64,000 nt of DNA, taken from contig NZ_JAENRR010000002.1 in the NCBI RefSeq assembly GCF_016612505.1, positions 1 to 64,000 of the forward strand. Direction: 5' to 3'. The first letter of the stretch is position 1; every line of letters begins with the position of its first letter. The notes under the pieces were generated by a model. The model was given only the letters and a program-made list of their open reading frames with translations. It was not told where the DNA came from and made no database searches. This DNA is from Carboxylicivirga marina (lineage in GTDB: Bacteria; Bacteroidota; Bacteroidia; Bacteroidales; Marinilabiliaceae). A program made the translations under genes and the position numbers. Of this stretch, positions 20,830 to 42,741 are shown piece by piece.

Positions 20830-20861
20830 TAAACTCAACTCAATAATTTGAGAAAATAAAT

Positions 20862-20935
20862 TCCCTAGTAGCTCAGTTGGTTAGAGCGGCGGACTGTTAA
20901 TCCGTAGGTCGTAGGTTCAAGTCCTACCTGGGGAG
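20862..20935 (+). tRNA. tRNA-Asn (GTT), copy 1
   Basis: A 74-nt cloverleaf. The acceptor stem is TCCCTAG/CTGGGGA with one T-G wobble; the D-loop has AGTTGGTTA; the anticodon loop CTGTTAA has GTT at 20896-20898; the T-arm is GTAGGTTCAAGTCCTAC; the discriminator base is G. CCA is not encoded. Confidence 0.97.
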
Positions 20936-20980
20936 CTTTAAAAAGCTTAAACGAAAGCTTTTAAATTTTTGAAAATATTT

Positions 20981-21054
20981 TCCCTAGTAGCTCAGTTGGT
21001 TAGAGCGGCGGACTGTTAATCCGTAGGTCGTAGGTTCAAGTCCTACCTGGGGAG
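20981..21054 (+). tRNA. tRNA-Asn (GTT), copy 2
   Basis: Identical to copy 1 over all 74 nt, with anticodon GTT at 21015-21017. The spacer between the copies is 45 bp. A terminator hairpin follows at 21063-21092, so the pair is probably one transcript. Confidence 0.97.
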
Positions 21055-21062
21055 CTTTAGAA

Positions 21063-33623: not shown

Positions 33624-33969
33624 CTTAATCGTGTTTTGGTGTTTAAAAGGCGAAGATACAATCAAAAGCTGTGCCGAACAATTTTATAAGACGCAAGACA
33701 TAAGATAGGAGATGAGTTGAAAGTGAAGTGAGTTTATTAGTTTAAATGTTGAGGATAAGAGTTTGGGTTTAGAGTTTATGAGTTGAGAATGAGTTGAAGG
33801 TTTACTGTTATATTAAGCTGTAAATCAAATCTTCTCCTTTTCAGGGGGAAGTGCCGAAGGCGATGGGGGAGTTTGTAGAAGAAGAGCTTTGGCTTACAAG
33901 CTGTATATCTTTCTTCACTTTTTTATAGGAGGAGAACTTCGCCAAGAAAAGAGAGGTGGTTATCAATTA
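33624..33969. other. Intergenic region with a heptamer array and palindromic repeat
   Basis: There is no gene. 33688-33715 has four 7-mers in phase (AAGACGC, AAGACAT, AAGATAG, GAGATGA), of the type flanking the four-helix-bundle cassettes; looser heptamer-like text (GAGTTTA and similar) follows to about 33800. 33829-33960 is a copy of the GGGGGAAGTGCC...GGCGATGGGGGAG repeat also seen at about 15695-15720. Confidence 0.6.
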
Positions 33970-35025: not shown

Positions 35026-35060
35026 AAGATTAAAGACATAAGACGCAAGATAAAAGATAA
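35026..35060. repeat. Heptamer array (5 x 7 bp), left of cassette 1
   Basis: Five units in exact 7-bp phase: AAGATTA, AAGACAT, AAGACGC, AAGATAA, AAGATAA. The array lies 5 bp outside the four-helix-bundle stop (35066). Its partner on the other side is in the opposite orientation. Confidence 0.8.
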
Positions 35061-35065
35061 ACTTG

Positions 35066-35419
35066 TTATTGGCTTAGTCTTTCTCTTAATGCACTAATCA
35101 TTCTTTCTATCTCCTGAACTTTTATCTCAAGCTCATTGAATGTATCGTCAGTGATAAAGTCTAAATCAAAACAAAGCATTAATTGAGTTTCTAACTCATA
35201 CGCTGAACCTATAGCAATGTCAAGAAAACGCCCAAACTCCTTATCTGTTCTTCGCCCAGTTCCTTCCGCAATATTTGAAGGGATTGAAACCGAAGCTCGT
35301 CGCATTTGGCTAATAAGTCCAAACTTCTCTTCTTCTGGTAAATCTTTAGCTAGTAGATAAATGTCTTTAACAAGGTGTCTGGCTTTTTGCCAAACCTTAA
35401 GTTCTCTGAAATTATGCAT
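35066..35419 (-). CDS. Four-helix-bundle (S23-type) protein, cassette 1
   Basis: The 117-residue protein begins MHNFRELKVWQKARHLVKDI and continues with the family motifs FGLISQMRRASVSIPSNIAEG, then GRFLDIAIGSAYELETQL and a last helix with IERMISALR. It belongs to the S23 four-helix-bundle family first seen in 23S rRNA intervening sequences; the diversity-generating-retroelement accessory protein Avd shares the fold. The function of stand-alone copies is unknown. Both sides carry five-unit heptamer arrays. The paralogue at 42336 is about half identical and lies in mutAB. Confidence 0.93.
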   Translation of the reverse strand: MHNFRELKVWQKARHLVKDIYLLAKDLPEEEKFGLISQMRRASVSIPSNIAEGTGRRTDKEFGRFLDIAIGSAYELETQLMLCFDLDFITDDTFNELEIKVQEIERMISALRERLSQ

Positions 35420-35424
35420 TTTAA

Positions 35425-35459
35425 GTCTTTTATCTTATGTCTTTCGTCTCGTGTCTATA
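35425..35459. repeat. Heptamer array (5 x 7 bp), right of cassette 1
   Basis: Five units in 7-bp phase: GTCTTTT, ATCTTAT, GTCTTTC, GTCTCGT, GTCTATA. Read on the other strand these are AAGAC-type units, so the array is inverted with respect to 35026-35060. It runs into the 3-prime end of the MmcQ gene by a few bases (stop at 35455). Confidence 0.78.
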
Positions 35460-40407: not shown

Positions 40408-42279
40408 ATGGCAGATAAAACAAATCAACTGTTATTTAGTGATTTTCCGAAAGTATCTACTCAAGAGTGGATGGATAAAATCACGGCAGACCTAAAGGGA
40501 GCAGACTTTGAGAAAAAGCTGGTATGGAGAACCAATGAAGGATTCAACGTACAGCCTTTCTATCGTTCTGAAGACCTTGAATCATTAACCTATCTTGAAA
40601 GCCAGCCTGGCGAGTTCCCGTATGTTCGCGGTAACAATGCTAAGTCGAACAAATGGTTCGTACGTCAGGATATCGTTGTAAAAGACGTAAAAGCGGCCAA
40701 CGAAAAAGCATTAACTGTCCTTACCAAAGGTGTTGACAGTATCGGATTTGTTATTGAAGACAAAGCGCTAATTTCAGAAGCTAACATTGAGGCTTTATTA
40801 AAGAACATTATTTCTGACGATGTAGAAATTAACTTCAACGCTTGTTGCGGAAACAAGGAGTTAGTGGATGCTGTTGTTGCTGTTCTTAACAAGATGAACC
40901 GTACACATGCTGAGGTTAAGGGTTCTATCAACTTTGACCCGATTGGTGATTTAACCATCAATGGAAAAGCATGTTGCGAAACTGAAAAAGCGCTAGACAA
41001 AGTTAAAGAAGTGGCCGAAGTAGCTAAGAACTTTCCACAGTTTAAAACTGTAGGTGTTAATGCTCGTCATTTCAACAACGCCGGTGCATCTATCGTGCAG
41101 GAGTTAGCTTTCGGCTTGGCTATGGGTAATGAGTACTTAACGCAGTTAACTGAGCGTGGCATGGCTATTAACGATGTAGCAGCCAACATTAAGTTTAACT
41201 TGGGTGTAAGTGGTAATTACTTTATGGAAATTGCTAAACTACGTGCTGGTCGTATGTTATGGGCTAAAATTGTTGAAGCTTATAAACCAACTGGTGTTGA
41301 GGTTTGCAAGATGCATGTTCATTCTGAAACTTCAGACTGGAACAAGACTATTTTCGATCCAAACGTAAACATGCTTCGTACTCAAACTGAGGCAATGTCT
41401 GCTACTTTAGGTGGAACGCAGTCGTTAACTGTTCAGCCATACGATACTTTATATAAAGAGTCGGATGATATTTCAGAGCGTATTGCACGTAACCAACAGT
41501 TATTGTTGAAAGAAGAATCTCACTTCGAAAAGATTGTAGACCCATCAGCGGGTTCATATTATATCGAAAACCTTACAAATAGCATGGCTGAGGAAGCTTG
41601 GGCATTATTTGTTGAGGTAGAAGACAAAGGTGGTTTTATTGCTGCAATGAAAGAAGGCTTTATTCAAGGTCTTGTGAAAGAAACAGCTGAAAAACGTCGT
41701 AAAGCCGTTGCTACTCGTCGCGAAAACCTATTAGGAACAAACCAGTTCCCTAATACAGGTGAAATTATCTCTGATGTTATCGATGCTAAGAAATTAGTTA
41801 AGTCGGCTTGTTGTTGTGGTGAAGGAAAAGAAGTTGAACCAATCAACTTGTTCCGCGGTGCTCAGGATTTTGAAGAGCTACGTTTAGCAACTGAGAATGC
41901 AACGAAGCGTCCAAAAGTATTTATGTTGACATACGGAAACTTAGCCATGCGTTTAGCACGCTCTCAGTTTTCGGGTAACTTCTTCGGATGTGCTGGTTAC
42001 GAAATTCAGGATAACCTAGGTTTCGAAACTATCGAGGCTGGTGTTGAAGCAGCTAAAGCAGCTAATGCCGACATCGTTGTACTTTGTAGTGCCGATGACG
42101 AATATGCTGAAGCAGCTCCAAAAGCTAAGGAATTATTAGGCGATACGCCATTAGTAATTGCAGGAGCTCCTGCTTGTGCCGATGAGCTAAAAGCGAAAGG
42201 TATCACCAACTTTGTGAATGTTCGTTCAAATGTATTGGAGACATTGCAAGGCTTTAACGAGATGGTTCTAGAAAAATAG
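40408..42279 (+). CDS. mutA: Methylmalonyl-CoA mutase small subunit
   Basis: The ATG at 40408 (MADKTNQLLFSDFPKVSTQEW, 623 residues) is preferred to a TTG 24 bases upstream. The TIM-barrel half has HSETSDWNKT, GGTQSLTVQPYD, ARNQQLLLKEESH and DPSAGSYYIE; the C-terminal cobalamin-like domain lacks DxHxxG, as in known small subunits, which do not bind B12. With MutB it interconverts succinyl-CoA and methylmalonyl-CoA. The large-subunit gene normally follows at once; here a four-helix-bundle gene and two heptamer arrays (463 bp) intervene. The stop TAG forms the first bases of the left array. Confidence 0.96.
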   Translation: MADKTNQLLFSDFPKVSTQEWMDKITADLKGADFEKKLVWRTNEGFNVQPFYRSEDLESLTYLESQPGEFPYVRGNNAKSNKWFVRQDIVVKDVKAANEKALTVLTKGVDSIGFVIEDKALISEANIEALLKNIISDDVEINFNACCGNKELVDAVVAVLNKMNRTHAEVKGSINFDPIGDLTINGKACCETEKALDKVKEVAEVAKNFPQFKTVGVNARHFNNAGASIVQELAFGLAMGNEYLTQLTERGMAINDVAANIKFNLGVSGNYFMEIAKLRAGRMLWAKIVEAYKPTGVEVCKMHVHSETSDWNKTIFDPNVNMLRTQTEAMSATLGGTQSLTVQPYDTLYKESDDISERIARNQQLLLKEESHFEKIVDPSAGSYYIENLTNSMAEEAWALFVEVEDKGGFIAAMKEGFIQGLVKETAEKRRKAVATRRENLLGTNQFPNTGEIISDVIDAKKLVKSACCCGEGKEVEPINLFRGAQDFEELRLATENATKRPKVFMLTYGNLAMRLARSQFSGNFFGCAGYEIQDNLGFETIEAGVEAAKAANADIVVLCSADDEYAEAAPKAKELLGDTPLVIAGAPACADELKAKGITNFVNVRSNVLETLQGFNEMVLEK

Positions 42280-42311
42280 ACTTTGAGACTATAGACTTTT
42301 AGACTTAAGAC
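42277..42311. repeat. Heptamer-like array, left of cassette 2
   Basis: AGAC recurs at 42278, 42286, 42293, 42301 and 42308 (7-8 bp steps): TAGACTT, TGAGACT, ATAGACT, TTTAGAC, TTAAGAC. It begins with the mutA stop codon. Confidence 0.7.
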
Positions 42312-42335
42312 CATTGAAAGAATAATTGATTAGCA

Positions 42336-42707
42336 ATGAAAAGGAAGCATAACTTTAAGGAATTACAGATTTGGCAGAAAGGTAGAGCTCTTGTGAAAGA
42401 CATCTATCAGCTTACATCTAAATTTCCTAAATCCGAACTGTATGGATTAGTGAGCCAAATGAGGCGTGCTTCAATATCAATTCCTTCTAATATTGCTGAA
42501 GGTTCTGGTAGGAAAACGAGTAAGGAGTTTAGTCGTTTCCTGGAGATTGCTTATAGTTCAGCTTTAGAGCTTGAAACACAGTTATATCTTTCTTTTGATC
42601 TTACGTTTATCTCAGAATCTACTTTAGATGAATATCTAAATAAAATTGATGAAGTTCAAAAGATGATTTCTTCATTTGACAGTAAAATTCTGGCAGATAA
42701 TATCTAA
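42336..42707 (+). CDS. Four-helix-bundle (S23-type) protein, cassette 2, inside mutAB
   Basis: The 123-residue protein begins MKRKHNFKELQIWQKGRAL and has YGLVSQMRRASISIPSNIAEG, FSRFLEIAYSSALELETQLY and a closing IDEVQKMISSF helix, the S23 four-helix-bundle signature. It is closely related to the copy at 35066. It sits between the two subunit genes of methylmalonyl-CoA mutase, in the same direction, with heptamer-like arrays on both sides in opposite orientation. It should be cotranscribed with mutA and mutB. No metabolic role is expected; insertion as a cassette is the simplest reading. Confidence 0.93.
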   Translation: MKRKHNFKELQIWQKGRALVKDIYQLTSKFPKSELYGLVSQMRRASISIPSNIAEGSGRKTSKEFSRFLEIAYSSALELETQLYLSFDLTFISESTLDEYLNKIDEVQKMISSFDSKILADNI

Positions 42708-42741
42708 TCGTCTATTGTCTAAACATCTAAAAATCTAAAAA
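42703..42741. repeat. Heptamer-like array, right of cassette 2
   Basis: TCTA recurs at 42703, 42711, 42718, 42726 and 42734 (7-8 bp steps). It overlaps the stop of the four-helix-bundle gene and ends at the mutB ATG. It is inverted relative to the left array (TAGA/TCTA). Confidence 0.7.

Follow-up and report, generated by a model that had tools for sequence, protein, structure and literature searches.

One published rRNA intervening sequence that carries an S23 ORF has a terminal stem of 28 bp, is excised by RNase III, and contains tandem heptamers upstream of the ORF, according to the available portion of PMC4990558. REPINs are extragenic inverted hairpin doublets tied to RAYT genes (PMC3116915, in the sections accessible). 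The STRR of cyanobacteria are usually 7 bp long, form hairpins, have been reported between hupS and hupL, and have no stated function in the available text of PMC2670836; a title in a reference list places hairpin-forming cyanobacterial heptamer repeats in print since at least 1997. Heptamers of the sequence TAACTGA form intergenic arrays in Beggiatoaceae and also in some Bacteroidetes (PMC4679880, in excerpt). S23 proteins are common yet of unknown function in the literature, and cyanobacterial heptamer repeats are likewise without a known function. No paper linking S23 genes with flanking arrays was found in an open-access PMC library, and no such link is drawn in the accessible parts of PMC5524665 and PMC4748335. 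An earlier note on this DNA had known of no description of such a unit. For the union of S23 gene and arrays this holds within the open-access literature; heptamers beside an S23 ORF (PMC4990558) and 7-bp cyanobacterial hairpins (PMC2670836) were already in print, as the available text of each indicates.

In the window (the whole stretch of 64,000 nucleotides of Carboxylicivirga marina DNA that was analyzed), an S23-type gene is bounded by two arrays (Table 1); its neighbors are a yjbR-like gene and a DUF502 gene. The protein is a member of the S23/IVP family PF05635, with 144.1 bits against a curated Pfam cut-off of 33.8; profile-search E values are 2e-42 for PF05635 and 5e-39 for TIGR02436. 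Its solved relatives, 2gsc and 2rld, have five chains in each. The focal protein shares a fold family with Avd of diversity-generating retroelements but falls below both Avd cut-offs, with 28.5 of 80 bits for DivGenRetAVD and 31 of 40 bits for bAvd.

Table 1. Positions of S23 genes and heptamer arrays in the window
Feature	Position	Strand	Details
Array downstream of S23 gene	35026..35060	-	Five 7-bp units, GTCTT-type on coding (minus) strand
S23-type four-helix-bundle gene, 117 aa, PF05635/TIGR02436	35066..35419	-	Profile matches
Array upstream of S23 gene	35423..35457	-	Five 7-bp units, AAGAC-type on coding (minus) strand
Gene-less intergenic array with focal unit (AAGACGC AAGACAT AAGATAG)	33687..33713	+	Inverted-pair scan, pattern search
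Less regular left array of mutA/mutB paralogue	42271..42312	+	Bounds by eye
Paralogous S23 gene between mutA and mutB	42336..42707	+	Profile matches
Right array of mutA/mutB paralogue, inverted relative to left	42708..42741	+	Bounds by eye

The units of the left array are AAGATTA AAGACAT AAGACGC AAGATAA AAGATAA, and those of the right array, read on the minus strand, are TAGACAC GAGACGA AAGACAT AAGATAA AAGACTT. The left array lies where the earlier note had placed it and the right array 2 bp from the 35425-35459 given there; the first unit of the right array contains the codon (35455-35457) with which the upstream yjbR-like ORF ends. The mirror-image layout of five units on each side, which that note had described, was borne out by an inverted alignment score of 17.0 for the 130-bp flanks. 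As 0 of 20,000 dinucleotide shuffles reached this score (best shuffle, 16.5), the inverted layout is not explained by chance. For the lag-7 score, 33 of 5000 shuffles did as well on one flank and 2 of 5000 on the other.

Like an insertion sequence, the focal element has terminal inverted repeats and an empty site; the framed ORF has no transposase profile match, and no target-site duplication was seen at the junction on inspection by eye. Carriage by phages was rejected, the focal protein having 0 matches at an E value of 1e-5 among 50,697 phage records. Like the 23S rRNA intervening sequence, it has an S23-family ORF framed by complementary termini, and in one published case heptamers precede the ORF there as well (PMC4990558, as far as its available text goes). 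In contrast to that system, the focal element has its complementary termini at a yjbR-like/DUF502 junction, not inside an rRNA gene, and the elements described here lie between protein genes, have a multi-unit array on each side, and show several units per genome as well as gene-less copies elsewhere. The likeness to REPIN/RAYT systems consists of extragenic repeats and linkage to one protein gene, and perhaps of inverted doublets (PMC3116915, in the sections accessible). However, the gene framed here is S23 rather than a RAYT (HUH) transposase, the unit is set by period instead of consensus, the ends are tandem arrays, and the gene-less copies are mostly single arrays.

Comparison of occupied and empty sites indicated how gene and arrays belong together. 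Both focal neighbor genes were found in 18 genomes, and S23 occupies the junction in the focal genome only, being absent from 17 of the 17 others; the gap is at most 111 bp in 14 of these, and short repeats at the junction in two same-genus genomes may be scars (by eye). The paralogue between mutA and mutB has a similar but less regular layout, as the earlier note had observed; period 8 fits it better than 7, and its inverted score of 10.5 is just under the threshold of 11.0. A MutB match in 36 genomes yielded loci from 30, of which 29 contain both genes. S23 was found at 9 of these 29 mutA/mutB loci and a PF13366 gene or fragment at 13, while 3 have apparent scars (gaps of 59-121 bp that resemble fused arrays minus the gene) and 4 are clean, with gaps of 14-19 bp and no arrays. 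Because the focal site is empty elsewhere, the clean mutA/mutB junctions lack arrays, and the units of related S23 genes tend to be alike at different loci, the behavior of gene and arrays as a single inserted unit is supported. This sustains the inserted-unit part of the mobile cassette proposed in the earlier note (focal-site S23 in 1 of 18 genomes, four clean mutA/mutB junctions, similar units at different loci); its movement we infer.

The 13 inserts overlapping PF13366 are 264-731 bp long, with 8-bp repeats recognized by eye. These genes or fragments (GxxExxY, PD-(D/E)XK; L143, L145, L147, L153-L157, and L160-L164) lie at mutA/mutB, the site of S23 in other genomes, and G034 and G019 likewise have ACRCAGAG arrays, although in these two genomes the PF13366 match is weak or absent. 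That PF13366 and S23 occupy the same junction would be expected if the arrays were mobilized by a transposase or reverse transcriptase encoded elsewhere in the genome, with S23 as their cargo and PF13366 as another such cargo. PF13366 flanks are inverse-complementary in 20 of the 28 loci used (out of 30), a level in which 12% of mismatched pairs score as high, and their autocorrelation rises modestly to peaks at 8 bp and 10 bp. Nevertheless, both the period and the unit of the arrays vary with the cargo family and with the S23 lineage, which a common mobilizer would not predict. We consider cargo status distinctly improbable.

The arrangement is widespread and insertional. Five of the eight S23 genes in the focal genome passed the inverted test. 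Array scores (period 7 or 8) exceed the 95% level on both sides of seven of the eight and on one side of the remaining gene, L008; L002 and L005 have period 8. A pooled set was assembled from focal-genome, family, and named loci, the last being the best 80 of 587. From its 159 S23-like ORFs (137 loci), those with less than 130 bp on a side or with repeated flanks were removed, leaving 151 usable ORFs in 132 loci, a set that takes in broken or partial genes (L030, L129, and L031, whose two pieces are counted apart). The inverse complementarity of the flanks exceeded the 95th percentile for mismatched loci at 105 of 151 S23 ORFs and 8 of 215 control ORFs, and the 99th percentile at 66 of 151 and 4 of 215; when S23 flanks were compared in the same direction, the two levels were exceeded in 19/151 and 15/151. 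Equal frequency beside unrelated genes, which the earlier note would have taken as refuting its proposal, is thus not seen for inverted pairs, although gene-less arrays do occur there. The other such outcome, S23 ORFs lacking arrays, was encountered in part: of the 46 of 151 that failed the inverted test, three of them from the focal genome, 6 are flanked by arrays on both sides and 23 on a single side, and the remaining 17 have neither array nor inverted flanks at the thresholds used.

The best period is 7 in 105 of the 151 S23 ORFs, 8 in 34, and another value in 12. The helical-phase recognition signal suggested in the earlier note was rejected on these periods, 7 bp not being the helical repeat. 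On each side of the gene the commonest array length is five units (71 scorable arrays per side), in a count whose scoring threshold hides short arrays, and the array begins a median of 3 nt past the upstream stop (quartiles -4 and 10.5; 91 loci). S23 proteins are present in 38 of 41 genomes sampled from the bacterial family of the host. In five unsaturated orthologue pairs S23 dN/dS is 0.05-0.08, indicating purifying selection, with dS at 1.7 and 3.0 in two of them; three further comparisons were saturated.

The inverted-score threshold of 11.0 was set on the 151-ORF set and reused for PF13366, other-group, and plasmid loci. It was passed by 22 of 31 S23 ORFs (30 loci) in nine genomes labeled as other groups, labels that are possibly wrong because eight of these genomes are metagenome bins. 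Ten cyanobacterial plasmid loci were drawn from 29 plasmid records with an S23 match; seven passed the inverted test, and the best period is 7 in all ten. They can be likened, by the description of STRR, to the 7-bp intergenic tandem repeats of cyanobacteria; the STRR, in contrast, are published as repeats alone, with no link to S23 in the available text of PMC2670836. On two cyanobacterial plasmids (L417 and L422), cas6 and cas4 flank the S23 gene. The arrays of L417 are direct, not inverted.

S23 ORFs are co-directional with both neighbors in 135 of 151 cases, which would suit an element acting at the RNA level. On that account the arrays would pair within the polycistronic transcript, the S23 segment would be cut out or insulated by RNase III, S23 would bind RNA, and pairing would be under selection; the stem, RNase III cut, and tandem heptamers of the rRNA intervening sequence with its S23 ORF (the available portion of PMC4990558) provide a precedent. 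However, control triplets are co-directional at a high rate as well (275 of 354), and gene-less single arrays exist without an evident partner. Under RNA pairing, G.U mismatches should exceed A.C mismatches between the arms, and they do not (111 G.U against 141 A.C in 105 of the 151 loci), so that, on this test, the signature of an RNA stem under selection is missing and such a stem was rejected. We judge the RNA-level account unlikely. Inverted rather than direct orientation would fit recognition of double-stranded ends better than recognition of a single transcript.

The two arrays of one locus share a repeat unit, whereas units differ between loci. Unit-profile similarity is 0.787 within a locus (left against the reverse complement of right) and 0.381 between loci (69 loci), and among the six focal-genome S23 loci where a 7-bp unit could be scored, pairwise similarity ranges from 0.12 to 0.64. 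Since units vary in this way from locus to locus, a single fixed recognition sequence was rejected. Similar S23 proteins at different loci nevertheless tend to carry similar units. Among pairs from different contexts, mean unit similarity is 0.34 below 30% protein identity and 0.64 at 60-70%; the Spearman correlation between unit and protein similarity is 0.11 for 4960 different-context pairs and 0.37 for 711 same-context pairs, in neither case computed from independent pairs. From 26 different-context pairs of at least 60% identity, six were removed for common neighbors or a missing flank, and the remaining 20 have a mean unit similarity of 0.645 (range, 0.33-0.95) against 0.377 for all different-context pairs. 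The trend is concentrated at the top identities, where L072/L097 and L106/L108 are clear cases, and host relatedness may account for part of it. Periods 7 and 8 switch 14 times on the S23 tree, compared with 23-31 times in 100 shuffles; this was a quick tree with few columns and long branches, the period label being available for 128 of 143 rows.

Arrays with the focal unit also occur without a gene. The core AAGAYNN in three successive units gave 27 pattern matches at 16 places in the focal genome, 15 of them besides the focal site, and 2, 1, and 7 matches in three same-genus genomes, the 7 being mostly another subtype. The focal unit is in this respect a genome-specific, multicopy extragenic repeat, as REPINs are. 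At none of the 15 additional places is an S23 match adjacent. One of them (33,688) is separated from the focal gene by 1.3 kb, and two of the places are 250 bp apart. A gene-less heptamer stretch at 33687-33800 of the window, upstream of a TPR ORF, opens with the focal unit. In 11 of 13 gene-less regions inspected the arrays lie outside ORFs of at least 70 aa, and in the remaining two the array overlaps only ORFs of 84 and 95 aa; three of the 13 (L343, L345, and L347) have the core in both orientations. The gene-less focal-unit hairpin of L343 is missing from the matching junction of two relatives, where there are no arrays (L368 compared with L369 and L372, by eye). At the junction before a gene that by eye encodes a prephenate dehydrogenase-like protein, most of ten genomes have short inverted arrays with differing units, again by eye.

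The AGCTANN core gave 17, 18, and 12 matches in G036, G027, and G009, each of which has an S23 bearing the AGCTANN unit (by place or by eye), and 0-2 matches in 13 other genomes; the 17 matches in G036 occupy 12 places, and about seven look by eye like one rRNA-operon spacer copied. In several copies of such rRNA-operon-like spacers (L351-L355, G036), AGCTA-type arrays flank an apparent tRNA (by eye). An apparent ilv/leu operon of G036 (L231, 9007-15498; names by eye) has three junctions, each with a related gene-less heptamer array. The exact AAGTATC core is commonest, among 41 genomes, in G038 (22 matches), where an S23 has that unit. It also has 6 matches in G001 and 9 in G002 without a known matching S23; G001, where a scorable array is present at only one of three S23 loci, has 19 AAGAY matches as well. 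One AAGTATC array occurs in G011, which has no S23 match. Of 17 sampled gene-less arrays, 3 matched resident units beyond chance (0.05), all among the seven of G000 and none among the five each of G036 and G001.

Three genomes with 8, 9, and 3 S23 matches had 15, 10, and 7 intergenic period-7 arrays in samples of 400, 400, and 360 kb. Two genomes, one with no S23 match and one with a single broken S23, had 1 and 0 such arrays per 400 kb, and these two constitute the S23-free end of the comparison. Random first-order sequences of whole-sample length gave 3-8 period-7 arrays (coding plus intergenic; intergenic, 12-22%), against which G000 shows a clear excess, and G036 and G001 a modest one. By script, 2/15, 0/10, and 1/7 of the sampled period-7 arrays are hairpin-like. 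Period 5 is as frequent as 7 in the G036 sample (10 each), periods 8 and 9 (18 and 11) outnumber 7 (7) in G001, and further raised periods are 11 in G000 and 9 and 11 in G003.

Heptamers were the most abundant class of short tandem repeat in most genomes of one study, for which slippage was proposed (PMC4679880, in excerpt), and repeats might be neutral here as well: slippage and hairpin-templated correction would make and homogenize 7-bp inverted intergenic arrays, in which S23 merely survives. The arm mismatches, 252 of transition type and 480 of transversion type, have the random-letter ratio and are consistent with this. The TAACTGA repeats of the same study resemble the S23 arrays in being intergenic heptamer arrays but have one fixed unit, are nearly all direct, and are described, in the available text, without a flanked gene family. 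Against neutrality, arrays are near absent in the two genomes without an intact S23, and period and unit follow the S23 protein, partly across different loci. In addition, a scan of the window and of 400 kb of S23-free sequence from one same-genus genome detected only the focal element and one further pairing, that of one focal arm with the solo array at 33.7 kb; it found no inverted array pair in the 400 kb, with a sensitivity that is limited because the mutA/mutB paralogue in the window was missed. We regard the neutral explanation as improbable.

The best reading, to which we give about an even chance, is an array-bounded insertion element in which an S23 ring reads the arrays, in a manner resembling REPIN/RAYT. 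An S23-driven mobile element is inferred here from distribution rather than from an observed event; no transposition event or intermediate was seen in the genomes compared. Such an element consists of an S23 ORF of about 350 bp between two short reverse-complement tandem arrays, mostly of 4-6 units of 7 bp, sometimes 8, and is placed mainly in gaps between co-directional genes, with the left array near the upstream stop codon. Its units vary by locus, unit and protein tending to travel together. Some junctions retain apparent fused arrays minus the gene, and gene-less arrays with a resident unit stand at other gene junctions, like REPs beside RAYTs. The S23 ring would recognize the arrays as DNA at both ends, and the chemistry would be supplied by a host polymerase or recombinase; S23 is not known to have a catalytic site.

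A broader proposal, which we consider doubtful, is that S23 rings are catalysis-free mobility proteins that would read heptamers, perhaps at one unit per pentamer subunit (five units being the commonest array length on either side of the gene), and would synapse two inverted arrays. The rRNA intervening sequences, the cyanobacterial STRR hairpins, and the operon cassettes would then all be their products, and PF13366 nuclease-like genes would run a parallel 8-10-bp system. The layout of S23 genes points to a very small insertion element and to a possible origin of short repeats for which an explanation has long been missing. Should the S23 genes and the repeats be parts of one element whose protein and unit co-evolve, the functions of both could be addressed by bench experiments, and the code of the element would be unusual in that its period is fixed and its sequence free. 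Elsewhere in the window, at 20845-21059, there is a 119-bp tandem duplication whose unit resembles a tRNA gene plus spacer, the tRNA being recognized by eye.
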